A DNA stretch of 32,600 nt from assembly GCA_021792615.1 (NCBI GenBank), contig JAJYUJ010000030.1, positions 1 through 32,600 on the forward strand, written 5' to 3'. This document shows positions 1 to 5,971 of this stretch, piece after piece (position 1 is the first letter of the stretch; the number at the start of each line of letters is the position of its first letter). A program made the position numbers and the translations under genes. Origin of the DNA: a bacterium (lineage in GTDB: Bacteria > JAMCPX01). The notes under the pieces were generated by a model. That model was not told where the DNA came from and ran no database searches. It saw only the letters and a program-made list of their open reading frames with translations.

Positions 1-636
1 TCTTATATAACAGCTATAACCTTGGTTTTTATTTTAGTTATACCGATAAAATCTCGCTGTGATCAAAGTAGTCCAAAAGAAGTAATAAAAAAATATTATC
101 GGTTAATGATGAACTCGTGTTGGTGCTGCAATCCTCATGATTGGTCGTGTCCTAATAATCCTTTTTTTGCGATGTTACTTACAAAAAAATTTAATCCAAT
201 AGGAGAAAGAGAAGAATTGCAAGTTTCATTACCTTTACGAATTAATAATTGCAAAAAAAAGAAAAATAAAGCATCGTGCGATGTTACCTATTTCATTATT
301 GGCGAATTGACCACTATTTATGGTGTCCCCTTTGCTGAAAAAAATCATAAAGAAACGGTTACCTTTCAGTTAATAAAAAAGTCTGGCGTATGGAAAATTG
401 ATAGCATTATGCAGGATGGAATAGAGCGTAATGTGGATGGCAGTAATGTTGTGGCTGTTACATATGCACTAATAAACATTAAAAAAGATATCAAATATAT
501 ACATAAAGAAATAAATGAGAAGAAAGATAAAACAGATAAGACTCTCGATCTATTGAAAGAGCGCCTTGAATCTCTTCAGGAAGCGAAAAAGATAATCGAG
601 AAAAGAGAACAATACGGTGTAAAGGCATGGAATTAA
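1..636 (+). CDS. Exported NTF2-like protein, candidate immunity protein (5' partial)
   Basis: The reading frame is open from base 1. It begins inside a hydrophobic signal-like segment, so the true start lies just left of the window; the TTG at 22 is probably internal. The protein is homologous to those at 1767 and 3724. All three have an export segment ending in [K/R]-C, then a VI(E/K)KYY..MM motif, a Cys pair, a 'NNP' turn, VSLPL.INNCK, CDVTYFIIG, and a closing W-K-I.S strand typical of NTF2-like folds. Conserved cysteines suggest a disulfide-bonded periplasmic protein. Inference: immunity protein for an NlpC/P60 toxin encoded left of the window. The C-terminal coiled-coil tail is cut short (..YGVKAWN) relative to the paralogs, and the last 10 nt overlap the next gene. 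This looks like a recombination junction. Confidence 0.72.
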   Translation, partial: SYITAITLVFILVIPIKSRCDQSSPKEVIKKYYRLMMNSCWCCNPHDWSCPNNPFFAMLLTKKFNPIGEREELQVSLPLRINNCKKKKNKASCDVTYFIIGELTTIYGVPFAEKNHKETVTFQLIKKSGVWKIDSIMQDGIERNVDGSNVVAVTYALINIKKDIKYIHKEINEKKDKTDKTLDLLKERLESLQEAKKIIEKREQYGVKAWN

Positions 637-1763
637 TAACCCAAAATACTTGTATAAGGCCCGATACCTACCTGTTTGGGACAATGTCAAAGGTAGATAA
701 AGGTGGAGTAAGCATAGATGTTAAGAGAGACATAGATATACCTTTGCCTATAGACGGAAACACGGGCAGGAGCATAGACTACATGAATGTCTCGGGGCTT
801 GGAAGCTCATCATGGGAGAGTTCAATACTTGGAGGCTTTTTCTCAATGCCAACGGTATCGGCAGTAAAGCTTTTAAATGCAGCCTATAAACAGGGTATTC
901 CGATCTACACGATCACCAGTAGCAACATGAATACAATCCTTTCCCAGCTTAATGTTGATCCATCAGTTATTTCAGCCATACAGAATGCAATCAATGCTGG
1001 TTATGAAGTAATCATCTCCCAAACTAATGTACAGTATTACGACTGGAACGGAGTAGGCTACATTGTATATGATCCATCCACAGGGGCAGGTGGGTATATG
1101 ATAAACGGTGGGTTGATGGGGGCGGGAACAGCATGTCCTTTGCCTAAACCAGGAGCATCTGATCCACCGGGACAAACATGTCCCTCAACAGTTCCACTTA
1201 CATCTATTTTTGCTGTGGATAGCTATGGTCAAACACAGCTTACTTCTGTAGCAAGAAATGATATAGTAGATTGTGCGGCATCACAAATAGGTGCCCCATA
1301 TATAGGGGGATGCCCATATGGACAAAATTGCCAAAACAATTGTAGTCCTCTTTCAAATGCATCAAGGAATTGTTTCGATTGCTCTGGATTAGTAGCTTAC
1401 TGTTATAGCATAGCAGGTTTTAAACAATTTGAGGTAATCTCAAAGGATTCTGGCACAAAGTATTCTGGAAATGGAGCAACACGTTACTATAATTTTCTAG
1501 AACAATGTGGTGGAATTACAGCACACCCTCAGGATGGAGATATCTATTTCTTTGCCGTTGCTACTGGTAAAAATAAGGGATATATGGATCACGTAGCAAT
1601 AGCATTCGCAGATGGCAGTGGTTTCTTAATAGATGCCTCACAACCAATTGGGTTTGTATTTCCTAGGACTATCGACGATGTAATAAGGGCAAGTGGTAAC
1701 TATGTAACACTTGAAGCGATTGGTGATTTGTTAGATAATTCATATCAATGTCAGGTGAAATAA
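627..1763 (+). CDS. NlpC/P60 toxin-cassette protein, copy 1
   Basis: This 378-aa protein has two parts. Residues ~14-206 are a constant region (GVSIDVKRDIDIPLPIDG, WNGVGYIVYDP, GAGGYMI.GGLMG, CPLPKPGASDPPGQ) nearly identical to copy 2. I recall similar blocks near the ends of large transglutaminase-like deltaproteobacterial proteins. Residues ~207-378 form an NlpC/P60 (papain-like) peptidase: Cys252 in FDCSGLV, His322 in MDHVAIA, and a polar third residue probably near Asp336 in LIDA. Such domains cut peptidoglycan stem peptides. There is no signal peptide. The partner gene starts 3 nt downstream. The start codon overlaps the preceding gene and the N-terminus is 42 residues shorter than copy 2, so this is a 5'-truncated cassette; its Shine-Dalgarno is poorly placed (AAAGG, 1 nt spacing). 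Toxin role and delivery are inferred; the NlpC/P60 fold is well supported. Confidence 0.82.
   Translation: MELITQNTCIRPDTYLFGTMSKVDKGGVSIDVKRDIDIPLPIDGNTGRSIDYMNVSGLGSSSWESSILGGFFSMPTVSAVKLLNAAYKQGIPIYTITSSNMNTILSQLNVDPSVISAIQNAINAGYEVIISQTNVQYYDWNGVGYIVYDPSTGAGGYMINGGLMGAGTACPLPKPGASDPPGQTCPSTVPLTSIFAVDSYGQTQLTSVARNDIVDCAASQIGAPYIGGCPYGQNCQNNCSPLSNASRNCFDCSGLVAYCYSIAGFKQFEVISKDSGTKYSGNGATRYYNFLEQCGGITAHPQDGDIYFFAVATGKNKGYMDHVAIAFADGSGFLIDASQPIGFVFPRTIDDVIRASGNYVTLEAIGDLLDNSYQCQVK
666..1244 (+). repeat. Constant block of the toxin cassette, copy 1
   Basis: This 579-nt block aligns without gaps to 2617-3195. Positions 780-886 are identical to 2731-2837 over 107 nt, silent sites included. Outside the block (beginning of the NlpC/P60 domain) the two genes diverge strongly. 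The pattern points to recent duplication or gene conversion of the 5' part, with diversification of the 3' toxin part. Confidence 0.9.
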
Positions 1764-1766
1764 ATT

Positions 1767-2432
1767 ATGAAACGATATCAAATATTTATTTTATTGTTTT
1801 TTGTTTTGATGTTGCCTACACTTTCCAAGTGTAAAACGAGTAATCCTAACCAAGTAATAGAGAAATATTATAAAATAGTTATGAATACATGCAGGGCTTG
1901 TGGCACTCCGCAAACTGATTTGTCTCGTCCACAAAATAATCCTGGATTAGCAAAACTGTTGACCAGACAATTTTCTCCCATAGCAGAAAAAGATTTTGAG
2001 CAAGTCTCATTACCTTTACACATCAATAATTGTAAAGAAAAAAATAATAAAGCAACATGTGATGTTACTTATTTTATTATAGGACAATGGAATTATTATG
2101 ATCCATTTTGTGAACGACATTTTATAAGAACAGTAACATTTAACTTATTGAAAATATCTGGAACATGGAAAATCAATAGTATAATAGAAGACGGTATAGA
2201 GCATAATAGTGATAATAGTAACTTGATATCCATACCTTTTATCTTAAAAAGAATTGATAAAGATATAAAATATTCATGTAGTAAAAAATGGCTTAAAAAA
2301 TGGTGTATAACACTAAAGCTAGATAAAAGAGCGATTAAAAAGATAGAAAAAAGAGCATTAAAGTACGAAATTAAGAATAATGAGGTGTTTATAAAAAAGT
2401 TGGCATGTCCACAAATAAGTAAACAAAGATAA
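1767..2432 (+). CDS. Exported NTF2-like protein, candidate immunity to copy 1
   Basis: This 221-aa protein starts 3 nt after the NlpC/P60 gene, with AGGTGA in the end of that gene as a possible ribosome site. Residues 1-23 are a signal peptide (MKRYQ, then a hydrophobic stretch ending LSKC). The body is NTF2-like: QVIEKYYKIVMNTC..C, NNPGLAKLLT, VSLPLHINNCK, CDVTYFIIG, TWKINSI. A lysine-rich helical C-terminal tail follows. Cysteines are conserved with both paralogs. The cysteine at the signal-peptide end is preceded by Lys, not Gly/Ala/Ser, so a classic lipobox is not met; it may be a disulfide cysteine. Inferred role: periplasmic immunity protein protecting the producer from the adjacent peptidoglycan-targeting toxin. 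The function is untested; exported status and paralogy are clear. Confidence 0.75.
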   Translation: MKRYQIFILLFFVLMLPTLSKCKTSNPNQVIEKYYKIVMNTCRACGTPQTDLSRPQNNPGLAKLLTRQFSPIAEKDFEQVSLPLHINNCKEKNNKATCDVTYFIIGQWNYYDPFCERHFIRTVTFNLLKISGTWKINSIIEDGIEHNSDNSNLISIPFILKRIDKDIKYSCSKKWLKKWCITLKLDKRAIKKIEKRALKYEIKNNEVFIKKLACPQISKQR

Positions 2433-2451
2433 AGGCTAAAAGGAGCCAAAG

Positions 2452-3720
2452 TTGTCTAAAAACAATATTGATATACAGAACTTTTATAGTTTACCTAACA
2501 TCGGCATATCTTATTTCAGCCATCTTGATTTTGAACAAGCTCTCTATGGAAAGAACCTACAGGTAGTTGACATCAAGCAGCCTTCGGAGGCACTGGTCAG
2601 TGCAGATGTGATACCCACGTATTTGCTTGGAACGGTATCAAAGGTCGATGAAAGTGGAGTGAGCATAGATGTCAAGAGAGACATAGATATACCGTTGCCT
2701 ATAGATGGGAACACAGGCAGAAGCATAGATTACATGAATGTCTCGGGGCTTGGAAGCTCATCATGGGAGAGTTCAATACTTGGAGGCTTTTTCTCAATGC
2801 CAACGGTATCGGCAGTAAAGCTTTTAAATGCAGCCTACAAACAGGGTATTCCGATCTACACTATCACCAGTAGCAACATGGATAGTATCCTTCCCAAGCT
2901 TAGCGTTGATTCAACGGTAATCTCAGCAATACAAGACGCCATTAATGCTGGCGATGAAGTCATCATCTCCCAGAGTAACATCCAATACTACGATTGGAAC
3001 GGAGTAGGCTACATCGTATATGATCCAGCAACAGGTGCAGGTGGGTATATGATAAGCGGTGGGTTGATGGGGGTGGGGACAGCATGTCCTTTGCCTAAAC
3101 CAGGAGCATCTGATCCACCGGGACAGGTTTGTCCTGCAACAGTACCACTTACATCTCTTTTTGCCGTGGATAGTTACGGTGAAACACAACTTACTGCTGA
3201 AGCAAGAGAAAATATAATAATGAATGCAGCGTCTGCACTCGGTTCTTCATATGTCCCAAGTTGTCCATTTGGTGGCGAGACGTGTACAAATCATTGTCCG
3301 GCTGGACAGATTTGCTTCGATTGCTCTGGATTAGTTTCTGCCGTTTATGCTTTTCAAGGTTTTACACAATATTATAAGCTCACAAATGGCTTAGCACCGA
3401 GCGTTGCAGGAGGGGGAGCGACGAAGATTTATGCATTTTTAGTTGGATGTGGTGCAATGGAATCAATCAACACACTTCCTCAAAATGGTGACATTTATTT
3501 CTTCAAAAAAAATAAAACTGGTATAAATAATAATCCTGTTCCGATGGATCATGTTGCAATTGCAGTAGGTACCTACGGCGCTTTAATTGATGCAGTAGTC
3601 CCAACTCATATGGTAAGTTGGAGAACAATCGATGATGTAATAAGTAAAAGTGGTTATACTGTAACATTTTATGGCATAGGTAATCTGTTAGATAATTCAA
3701 ATCAGTGTCTGTTGAAGTGA
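2452..3720 (+). CDS. NlpC/P60 toxin-cassette protein, copy 2
   Basis: The 422-aa protein starts at TTG 2452, supported by AGGAG at 2441-2445 with a 6-nt spacer. Residues 1-55 are absent from copy 1. Residues 56-248 are the constant block. Residues ~250-422 are a second NlpC/P60 domain with Cys291 (FDCSGLV), His367 (MDHVAIA) and LIDA around Asp380. The toxin domain shares only its catalytic motifs and its end (TIDDVI..SG, IG.LLDNS.QC) with copy 1. It is thus a divergent allele of the same family. The partner gene follows after 3 nt. There is no signal peptide, so secretion would have to depend on a parent protein or a dedicated apparatus not seen here. A housekeeping hydrolase is unlikely because such enzymes carry signal peptides and no such constant block. 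Confidence 0.83.
   Translation: MSKNNIDIQNFYSLPNIGISYFSHLDFEQALYGKNLQVVDIKQPSEALVSADVIPTYLLGTVSKVDESGVSIDVKRDIDIPLPIDGNTGRSIDYMNVSGLGSSSWESSILGGFFSMPTVSAVKLLNAAYKQGIPIYTITSSNMDSILPKLSVDSTVISAIQDAINAGDEVIISQSNIQYYDWNGVGYIVYDPATGAGGYMISGGLMGVGTACPLPKPGASDPPGQVCPATVPLTSLFAVDSYGETQLTAEARENIIMNAASALGSSYVPSCPFGGETCTNHCPAGQICFDCSGLVSAVYAFQGFTQYYKLTNGLAPSVAGGGATKIYAFLVGCGAMESINTLPQNGDIYFFKKNKTGINNNPVPMDHVAIAVGTYGALIDAVVPTHMVSWRTIDDVISKSGYTVTFYGIGNLLDNSNQCLLK
2617..3195 (+). repeat. Constant block of the toxin cassette, copy 2
   Basis: This is the gapless counterpart of 666-1244. Both blocks end at the codons for TQLT, immediately before the peptidase domain begins. This marks the likely point at which toxin tips are exchanged. 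Confidence 0.9.
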
Positions 3721-3723
3721 CTT

Positions 3724-4404
3724 ATGAAAAATTATCTAACACTTATTTTTTTGTTATTTGTTTTGCTATCAACGCATATTACTAAATGTGATGAACTCAC
3801 CCCAAAACAAGTTATAGAAAAGTATTATAAGATAATGATGGGTACGTGCTGGGGATGCTGGTATGGTTCTTTAGCTTTTCCGGAAAATAATCCCTCATTA
3901 GTCAAATTGATTACTAAGAATTTTCACCCAGTAGGAGGGGTAGAGACGTTGTCTGTAGCATTGCCGCCAATCATTGACAACTGTAAAATTAAGGGAAACG
4001 AGGCTTCATGTGGTATGACGAATTATATTTTAGGTGAACAAACACCAGACTATAACACTTTCTGTGAGCTACACCAAGTTACAAAAACAATATATAAATT
4101 AAAAACAATTTCCGGAACCTGGAAGATAAGTAGCGTCAAAAACAGCGGGGGAAAAGAAGGTTTGTATGACAATAGTAAATTAATATCCGTTACAACTGCC
4201 TTAAAAAGGATCGATGAATATATAGCTATATATCGCAAAACAGTGCGAAGAAAAAACGCTGCACAGGCAGATATTAATATAGCAAAGGTAAATATTAAAA
4301 TGCTCGAAAAAGATAAAAAGGGTATTAAGGAAATAGAAAGTAAAGCATTAAAATACGGGCTTAGAGAGAACGAGGTATTTGTAAAAGATTTGGTGTGTAA
4401 CTAG
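3724..4404 (+). CDS. Exported NTF2-like protein, candidate immunity to copy 2
   Basis: This 226-aa protein starts 3 nt after the second NlpC/P60 gene. The signal peptide covers residues 1-22 (MKNYL, then a hydrophobic core ending HITKC). The same core motifs are present: QVIEKYYKIMMGTCWGC, ENNPSLVKLIT, a central INCK/DNCK-type segment, a conserved Cys before a short strand, and TWKISSV. The tail, residues ~150-226, is a lysine-rich probable coiled coil ending ALKYGLRENEVFVKDLVC, which matches the 1767 paralog and shows what the 5'-partial copy has lost. It is inferred to be the cognate periplasmic immunity protein for the toxin at 2452. Divergence from its paralogs parallels the divergence of the toxins. 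Confidence 0.74.
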   Translation: MKNYLTLIFLLFVLLSTHITKCDELTPKQVIEKYYKIMMGTCWGCWYGSLAFPENNPSLVKLITKNFHPVGGVETLSVALPPIIDNCKIKGNEASCGMTNYILGEQTPDYNTFCELHQVTKTIYKLKTISGTWKISSVKNSGGKEGLYDNSKLISVTTALKRIDEYIAIYRKTVRRKNAAQADINIAKVNIKMLEKDKKGIKEIESKALKYGLRENEVFVKDLVCN

Positions 4405-4489
4405 CCAAAATACAGAAACAATGAAGTTAATAATATGTAATAAAAGTAATTGAAGCAGTATAGTTTAACCAAAAACTGATGATAAAAAG

Positions 4490-5002
4490 ATGAAGAACTT
4501 ATTTAAAGTCTCAATTTTAGTCTTTTTTGCATTCATATCTGCAACCTCCTCATTCGCAGACACCACCGCAATCACTAACGGTCTTTCCTGGCTTACAACA
4601 AATCAGAACTCCGATGGCAGTTTTGGGATAACAGAAACTACGATACTGGATACGACAAATGTGTTGGATACGCTCAAGTTTTTGCAGCCTACAAGCACTT
4701 CTTATTTAACCGGTGTTACATGGCTCAGTTCCCAGAGCGTGACTTCGACAGACTTTCTTGCAAGGCAGATAATAAGTCTTTCATCAGTGGGTGTAGGTAT
4801 TACATCTGATTTAACAAACCTTCTTGGGATTGAGAATATAGATAATGGATGGGGTGGGGATATAAGCTCCACAAGCATGATAATCGACACCACCCTTGCC
4901 CTTTCTGCGCTGAAATCGGTCAATTACTCAAATCAGACTACGATCAGCAATGCGGTTTTATATCTTGTAACCAACCGGATACAAAACAGGATTTTCATAT
5001 GA
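4490..5002 (+). pseudogene. Truncated N-terminus of a secreted alpha/alpha-toroid (prenyltransferase/squalene-cyclase-like repeat) protein
   Basis: The 170-aa frame begins with a signal peptide (residues 1-23, ending FISATSSFA). It continues with repeats of the prenyltransferase/squalene-oxidase toroid type: WLTTNQNSDGSFG, TDFLARQIISLSSVG, IDNGWGGD, DTTLALSALKSVNYS. The next repeat is broken. After LVTN the expected repeat continues in a different frame (QPDTK from 4972) and then in a third (TGFSYEANS from about 4986), followed by stops. At least two indels therefore ended the gene. Such toroids occur, as I recall, at the N-termini of very large secreted deltaproteobacterial proteins, some of which may carry the constant block seen in the cassettes. 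It could be the decayed head of another parent toxin; that link is inference. Confidence 0.62.
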
Positions 5003-5118
5003 AGCAAATAGTTAAATTAACCGCATCTTCTAACAGGGCAGGGCGAGTATAGCGGAAGCCAGGAATGAAATATAATAACCAACATCGGACAGCGGGTAGC
5101 CAAGGGACTCAGTCTCTG

Positions 5119-5153
5119 TCATTGCGAGAAGCTGAAAGCGACGAAGCAATCCC
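5119..5153. repeat. Dispersed interspersed repeat of the TCATTGCGAG...CGAAGCAATC type
   Basis: This short element has terminal complementarity (ATTGC at 5121-5125, GCAAT at 5146-5150). Its sequence style (tcattgcgag..gaagcgacgaagcaatccc) is a familiar dispersed intergenic repeat in many bacterial chromosomes. It lies in the 394-nt gap between the toroid remnant and apt. Confidence 0.6.
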
Positions 5154-5171
5154 AGACAATGTAACCCCCAT

Positions 5172-5315
5172 CCCCCCTTGTCAGGGGGGCTTCTTTCCAC
5201 TCTCCCCCTGTTAAGGGGGACGAAAGGGGGTTTGATTTCCTGTCCCCTCTAAAAAGAGGGGATAAAATGGGTGTGTTAACCGTAACTCCCCTTGCCCCTC
5301 TTACCCTAAGAGGGG
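5172..5315. repeat. Cluster of four C-rich/G-rich palindromes
   Basis: Four separate hairpins sit in 144 nt: 5172-5189 (7-bp stem CCCCCCT/AGGGGGG), 5203-5220 (stem TCCCCCT/AGGGGGA), 5243-5262 (8-bp stem TCCCCTCT/AGAGGGGA) and 5295-5315 (9-bp stem CCCCTCTTA/TAAGAGGGG). The arms share a CCCCTCT/CCCCCTT theme but the loops differ. They look like mobile or REP-like extragenic palindromes and not like a terminator. No gene is visible in 5053-5446. Confidence 0.65.
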
Positions 5316-5446: not shown

Positions 5447-5971
5447 CTATTTGTACTGTATCAACGAGAACACAGGGTGCGGTTTTATCCTCTCCCTGCC
5501 TTTTAAGCCGAGCAACTCGATGACAAATGCACATTCAACGACCTTTCCGCCGGACTTTTTGACGAGTTGTACAGCGGCCGAGGCTGTACCGCCCGTTGCG
5601 AGAAGATCGTCAACAATGAGCACCTTGTCGCCTTTTTTTACGGAATCCTTGTGCATCTCTATCTCATCGACACCGTATTCGAGTTTATAGCTTGCCTTTA
5701 CGGTTTTGTACGGAAGCTTTCCCGTTTTTCTCACCAGGATAATACCTTTGCCAAGTTTGTATGCAAGTGCAGAGCCGATTATGAAGCCACGCGCATCTAT
5801 GGCAAGGATCACGTCTATGTCACGGTCGATATATCTGTTGCCGAAAATATCTATGGTGCGCTGGAAAGACCTTGCGTCTTTGAGAAGCGTGGTAATATCG
5901 TAAAATAGTATGCCCTTCTTGGGAAAATCCGGTATCTCCCGTATAGCCTTTTTCAGATCAAATTCTTCCAT
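5447..5971 (-). CDS. apt: Adenine phosphoribosyltransferase
   Basis: This cytosolic purine-salvage enzyme converts adenine and PRPP to AMP and pyrophosphate. It is 174 aa, the usual length for Apt. The PRPP-binding loop is VLIVDDLLATGGT at residues ~118-130. The N-terminal IREIPDFPKKGILFYDITTLL and the flexible RKTGKLPY segment (residues 81-88) are typical of bacterial Apt. The ATG is supported by GGAGGT at 5977-5982 with a 5-nt spacer. It is transcribed away from the ACT gene, from a promoter at 5991-6018. Confidence 0.95.
   Translation of the reverse strand: MEEFDLKKAIREIPDFPKKGILFYDITTLLKDARSFQRTIDIFGNRYIDRDIDVILAIDARGFIIGSALAYKLGKGIILVRKTGKLPYKTVKASYKLEYGVDEIEMHKDSVKKGDKVLIVDDLLATGGTASAAVQLVKKSGGKVVECAFVIELLGLKGRERIKPHPVFSLIQYK

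Follow-up and report, generated by a model that had tools for sequence, protein, structure and literature searches.

A probable array of displaced tip–immunity cassettes from a polymorphic toxin family with an inactive transglutaminase trunk

Why are NlpC/P60 proteins and small exported proteins encoded in strict alternation at the edge of a contig, and are such genes cell-wall hydrolases with their accessory proteins or displaced pieces of a toxin system? The question is raised by the window, the whole of contig C54 (32,600 bases), of which base 1 is the contig end and which belongs to a source genome of 2.54 Mb in 77 contigs. In the ORF list, bases 1-4404 carry five genes, all on the plus strand, in the order imm1–tox1–imm2–tox2–imm3. 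Very probably, bases 1-5302 are the right-hand part of an array in which a polymorphic (tip-swapping) toxin system has left displaced cassettes. The features are as follows.

1 to 636, plus strand: imm1, exported NTF2-like partner, 5' end lost at the contig end; its own toxin would lie left of base 1
627 to 1763, plus strand: tox1, orphan tip protein with an NlpC/P60 tip, without signal peptide and starting within the block
666 to 1124, plus strand: constant (pre-toxin) block of tox1, the C-terminal three quarters of the block, by block profile match
1125 to 1763, plus strand: variable tip of tox1, a linker common to tox2 only, then the NlpC/P60 domain
1767 to 2432, plus strand: imm2, exported NTF2-like, predicted immunity protein of tox1, 3 nt past tox1
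2438 to 2444, plus strand: Shine-Dalgarno-like AAAGGAG read in the sequence, 7 nt upstream of the tox2 TTG start
2452 to 3720, plus strand: tox2, orphan tip protein without signal peptide, with an NlpC/P60 tip bearing Cys291 and His367
2488 to 3072, plus strand: constant (pre-toxin) block of tox2, a predicted ordered alpha/beta domain
3073 to 3720, plus strand: variable tip of tox2, where DNA similarity to the syntenic G004 locus stops
3724 to 4404, plus strand: imm3, exported NTF2-like, predicted immunity protein of tox2, 3 nt past tox2, from model and Foldseek
4490 to 5002, plus strand: truncated TED-like exported ORF, 170 aa with a signal peptide, the 5' piece of a large TED/squalene-cyclase-repeat gene
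about 4991 to 5302, plus strand: decayed parent-toxin fragment, transglutaminase region (residues about 240-332) with stops
5447 to 5971, minus strand: apt, the conserved right flank; the array sits in the rnc-apt interval

The alternation of three homologous exported proteins with two NlpC/P60 proteins, described in the first-pass annotation, is confirmed by the reading frames and by the identities, with imm1, imm2 and imm3 being pairwise 37-47% identical (imm1 47% to imm2 and 37% to imm3). The gap of exactly 3 nt that had been reported between NlpC/P60 gene and exported partner was found again in both pairs, tox1-imm2 and tox2-imm3. The first 10 nt of tox1 lie within the 3' end of imm1, tox2 starts with TTG behind a ribosome-binding site of its own (AAAGGAG), and all five frames are intact. 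Such repetition, spacing and identity is far beyond chance. The array extends past base 4404, as the truncated TED-like ORF and the decayed parent fragment adjoin imm3.

Between tox1 and tox2, identity is 89% in the block and 56% in the region past it, which agrees with the near-identical N-terminal block and divergent catalytic domains noted at the outset. The Pfam family NLPC_P60 matches tox1 above its curated cut-off (E=4e-5) and tox2 just under it (E=2e-3), and while a sequence search of the PDB with tox2 gave nothing convincing, a structure search with its AlphaFold model hits solved NlpC/P60 domains, the best at E=7e-5. The catalytic Cys and His (Cys291 and His367 of tox2) are invariant in 12 homologous tips. 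An NlpC/P60 fold with a catalytic Cys-His pair is thus predicted for both proteins, for tox2 by modelled structure and alignment only. By a simple hydropathy rule neither protein has a signal peptide, so that both, as they stand, would stay in the cytoplasm.

The same rule detects N-terminal signal peptides on imm1, imm2 and imm3, that of imm1 being visible in part only. None of the three belongs to a Pfam family, and a sequence search of the PDB with the immunity proteins returned nothing convincing. The model of imm3, built from a five-sequence alignment, has a pLDDT of 79.6, and its top Foldseek matches are largely NTF2-like with modest scores (E 1e-3 to 7e-2, TM on the target about 0.4-0.55). 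The early guess that the small proteins are NTF2-like therefore gains support from predicted structure at modest scores, and from no sequence family. A survey of the immunity family in 395 genomes returned the known L027 partner, a fragment at a contig start (L213) and L214, the last being a marginal match to a generic exported NTF2-like protein beside valS with no toxin adjoining. An immunity gene of the DUF4424-like type, which is also the type employed in G004, lies as an orphan beside a truncated block (L064 5437-6213, G000:C26), and here immunity is retained without its toxin.

The block shared by tox1 and tox2 is about 200 aa long and has no match in Pfam, NCBIfam or the PDB; a fold search with the tox2 model, in which the block reaches a pLDDT mostly above 80-90, returned NlpC matches only and no known fold for the block. 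Relatives by block profile occur in Nitrospirota, Desulfuromonadota and others, with Geobacter argillaceus and Geothermobacter among the cultured carriers, and of 396 genomes sampled in one phylum, 46 have the block. It is missing from 5 of 9 family genomes. A phylum survey around the window's own genome covered 9 genomes, and wider surveys were centred on related loci. Complete parents of about 1,000-1,200 aa, found in several phyla, consist of an N-terminal signal peptide or membrane segment, a coiled coil, a Transglut_core domain (E 1e-14 to 1e-18), the block and a variable tip. The transglutaminase catalytic Cys has given way, in most cases to Phe or Met, in all 43 scorable trunks of the toxin clade, whereas 11 of 17 distant relatives with long tails retain it (p=4e-8 for the comparison), and judged by these residues the toxin-clade domain is catalytically dead.

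The distant trunk relatives (L169-L189 in the surveyed phylum, G004:C98 and the start of G000:C12) mostly keep the Cys, have long fixed C-terminal tails and are often followed downstream by exported proteins with the motif VIDAETxxPIEG; they are probably a non-toxin sister family and possibly the ancestor of the toxin family. Within the coiled-coil region of parent N-termini (e.g. L063 82-900) there are low-complexity inserts (PSFPRNRESS, VIPVKTGIQS) that look like dispersed repeats. The match of window bases 4991-5291 to L063 was itself considered as a dispersed repeat and this was ruled out, the segment being the decayed parent fragment. A further instance of the same trunk and block is found on a Paraglaciecola plasmid (L200 6602-10613, profile E=3e-42), with a soluble partner, a tip that we read as nuclease-like and annotation as hypothetical proteins only.

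From 114 block ORFs, 67 complete sets of block, tip and next gene were obtained, and these fall into 39 tip clusters and 46 partner clusters with a median gap of 3 nt, which upholds the earlier statement that variable tips each have their own downstream partner. Recognisable tips include NlpC/P60, CHAP-like, phospholipase A2 (PLA2), M15 peptidase, colicin-pore and ART-HYD1 domains, while beta-propeller, DUF4424 and YARHG proteins are found among the partners; NlpC tips alone are combined with six partner clusters, every one of them exported. With topology and signal peptides called by the simple hydropathy rule, a membrane protein comes after 33 of the 37 membrane-type tips and an exported or soluble protein after 21 of the 23 other tips (Fisher p=3e-10), leaving 4 and 2 exceptions, respectively. 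When duplicates are collapsed to one per distinct pair, the counts become 27/30 and 12/13 (p=3.5e-7). Partner topology as called from sequence thus agrees with tip type. Related tips also have related partners, in 24 of 90 pairs against 1.2 by permutation (p=2e-4). Orphan tip-immunity cassettes occur in the window and in L011, L012, L023, L025 and L058-L061.

Two tip clusters without a Pfam match (L034, L157, L158 and L160, and L032) carry the motif YYAGHG ... LNSCxS, from which we read them as caspase-like, and an exported partner family is common to four of them. Another cluster (L029, L138, L130) has a soluble, non-exported partner family and may, on our reading, be ART-like; among all tips there is one Tox-ART-HYD1 match.

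An exchange is seen in the congener G004, whose contig C67 is syntenic with the window. From base 5202 onward the two are 96% identical in DNA; the block is 89% identical, bases 3081-4484 with tip and immunity gene are unalignable, and the TED piece aligns again at 83-91%. At the protein level, tox2 and the G004 toxin share 96% identity in the block and 30% in the tip. Tip and immunity gene have, from these alignments, been exchanged together between conserved flanks. The presence of the block in parents, the variable tips, the matched partners and the G004 swap imply that the window holds displaced polymorphic-toxin cassettes, and the joint replacement with retained flanks supports the tip-swapping array proposed in the first-pass annotation. 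Four hallmarks of polymorphic toxins are found in the sequences: a constant secreted carrier with many unrelated tips, a predicted immunity gene directly after the toxin, orphan cassettes and joint replacement; the tip would be toxic and the partner protective. The source genome and G004 form a natural before-and-after pair for the swap of tip and immunity gene at one site.

In G006, which belongs to another genus, a long array of full parents, orphans, immunity genes and TED pieces ends in a remnant of a tip of the tox1/tox2 type, 3 nt before a homologue of the small proteins of the window. That region (L058/L059, G006:C54, about 70-103 kb) contains several full parents, tip-only genes of 207 aa and a TED/CarboxypepD_reg gene of 2,304 aa; its orphans are internally deleted, with the first 20 or so aa fused to the pre-block.

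Where, then, is the rest of the array? In four relatives (G002, G003, G007, G008) apt and rnc are direct neighbours. In the source genome, contig C62 has rnc close to its end, and after rnc come a membrane immunity-type gene and a TED piece. As C62 carries rnc and a TED piece with the junction of the window, the array fills the rnc-apt interval with its middle unassembled, and C62 and C54 adjoin across an assembly gap, a join made by synteny that no assembled sequence spans. A parent directly left of base 1, the place first suggested for it, was set aside, because C54 ends there and synteny places the other side on C62. Further pieces of the toxin system are found on contigs C13, C6 and C26. 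No complete parent toxin is present among the assembled contigs of the source genome, where a 226-aa parent 5' end lies at the end of contig C36.

The TED-like ORF of the window (170 aa) is the truncated 5' end of the gene that is 2,304 aa long in G006, and such a gene lies downstream of the toxin in 39 of 61 loci with enough sequence. The fragment ends at the same junction in C54, C62 and G004 (window 4960-5000; L202 3240-3322; L061 about 4870-4950). A junction common to both flanks of the array and to G004 implies that one truncated copy was inherited or duplicated, and it was probably this repeated copy that broke the assembly. Tentatively, and with the odds somewhat against it, the dead-transglutaminase trunk and the adjacent giant TED-like/carboxypeptidase-regulatory protein could form an undescribed two-part, RHS-independent surface delivery class for envelope-targeting tips, in which the TED-like gene would double as the right-hand homology arm for cassette exchange. 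If this neighbour is a partner, the toxin system has a delivery apparatus that can be tested.

The following model is proposed for toxicity, neutralisation, delivery between cells, the role of the TED-like protein and the reuse of orphans. The complete toxin would be a Sec-exported protein of about 1,000-1,200 aa presenting its variable C-terminal tip to other bacteria, while the next gene would encode a protector located where the tip acts. An NlpC/P60 tip would cut peptidoglycan, and its exported NTF2-like protector is predicted to act in the periplasm by binding and blocking the tip to which it is cognate. A new pair of tip and immunity gene would enter by recombination, on the left within the block and on the right perhaps within the TED-like gene, and the old pair would stay behind as leaderless orphans. 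Retained immunity genes would still guard against siblings bearing the old tip, and retained tips may serve as a reservoir.

The same cassettes could instead be mere relics, that is leaderless, non-functional pieces that tandem duplications and deletions have left of a toxin locus active in the past, with neither a reservoir nor a protective role. Leaderless orphans beside a decayed parent fragment with stops and a truncated TED piece, in a genome with no complete parent assembled, are what such erosion would leave, but none of the five frames is broken, the NlpC domains retain their Cys and His, a separate ribosome-binding site precedes tox2 and the same tip-partner pairing persists across genera. 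We consider erosion alone unlikely.

NlpC/P60 enzymes commonly remodel the cell wall, and an amplified family of housekeeping hydrolases with exported accessory or inhibitor proteins would fit the exported partners. However, the genes are not the ordinary single secreted hydrolases with signal peptides that would have spoken against the first-pass annotation: tox1 and tox2 have no signal peptide, one and the same block bears tips of many unrelated kinds, whose partners are unrelated as well, the congener shows a joint replacement of tip and partner, and the block is absent from more than half of the family genomes. The survey likewise contradicts a block found solely on NlpC tips in single-copy core genes. 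Housekeeping hydrolases are rejected on account of the missing signal peptides, the unrelated tips and the joint swap, and we give them next to no credence. Effectors against protists or other eukaryotic predators, rather than competing bacteria, are conceivable for the ART-like and phospholipase tips, which could act on eukaryotes too; yet peptidoglycan hydrolase and M15 tips require a wall of the bacterial type, and the existence of dedicated protectors that fit the place where the tip acts points to bacterial targets, which makes a eukaryotic target highly improbable. Displaced cassettes of a toxin system directed at bacteria remain our preferred reading, and it is as such that the array is compared with known systems below.

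In CDI and Rhs orphan modules the toxin gene precedes the immunity gene, and displaced orphan pairs lie downstream. CDI (CdiA/CdiB/CdiI) and Rhs modules (PMC3150448, PMC3967940) resemble the block family in combining a constant carrier with a variable C-terminus. Unlike theirs, the carrier of the block family has no filamentous haemagglutinin and no RHS, and since no haemagglutinin or RHS families (nor a TPS secretion domain) were found by family search in the 8 parents scanned, CDI or Rhs proper is rejected. SitBAI of Myxococcus (PMC5562445) is likewise a polymorphic secreted toxin with cognate immunity, an accessory gene and several cassettes per genome; SitA, however, is a lipoprotein delivered by outer-membrane exchange, and neither such a carrier nor such a route was seen in the block family.

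Polymorphic toxins were defined by Zhang et al. 2012 (PMC3482391), who listed both NlpC/P60 toxin domains and NTF2-fold immunity proteins. Their Tox-NLPC (Hoch_2166, section 16) is similarly an NlpC/P60 peptidase tip predicted to degrade the walls of target cells, whereas the block family has a different carrier and a dedicated exported NTF2-like partner. Imm-NTF2 and Imm-NTF2-2 (Table 3) are NTF2-fold immunity proteins that pair with Tox-NucA and Tox-JAB-2, while the small proteins of the window, NTF2-like by predicted fold at modest scores, have signal peptides and an NlpC/P60 tip as their counterpart. In the literature searched, whose coverage leaves out many subscription papers, no description was found of an NlpC/P60 toxin with an exported NTF2-like partner, of this combination of block, toxin and immunity protein (which had been suspected to be undescribed) or of an RHS-free inactive-transglutaminase class.

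The closest likeness is to the inactive-transglutaminase RHS toxins (PMC3482391), which also have a secreted N-terminus, a transglutaminase domain with a lost catalytic residue and a variable C-terminal toxin. In the account of that paper, RHS repeats always come after such inactive domains (section 19). In the block family, by contrast, the tip follows directly after the block, with no RHS in any of the 8 parents scanned, the dominant tips are membrane- or wall-directed, the partners are exported or lie in the membrane, and downstream there is a TED-like gene. An RHS protein on a Methylomonas plasmid, a distant relative in which the repeats are present, has the same trunk, a block-like region (profile E=2.5e-15) and the same change from Cys to Phe. 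The initial claim that the block belongs to large transglutaminase-like secreted proteins and not to Rhs or CdiA therefore holds for the architecture and the lack of RHS, but not for descent, as the trunk is homologous to that of the inactive-transglutaminase RHS toxins. With the general definition of polymorphic toxins applying, the same trunk in an RHS protein and RHS itself absent, the family is best described as an RHS-free form of a known kind of toxin and not as a new category. As such it extends the polymorphic toxins by a branch of considerable size that seems to be unnamed, in lineages with little-studied contact-dependent or secreted antagonism, and its pre-toxin block offers a handle for finding new families of toxins and immunity proteins, the majority of which have no Pfam match.
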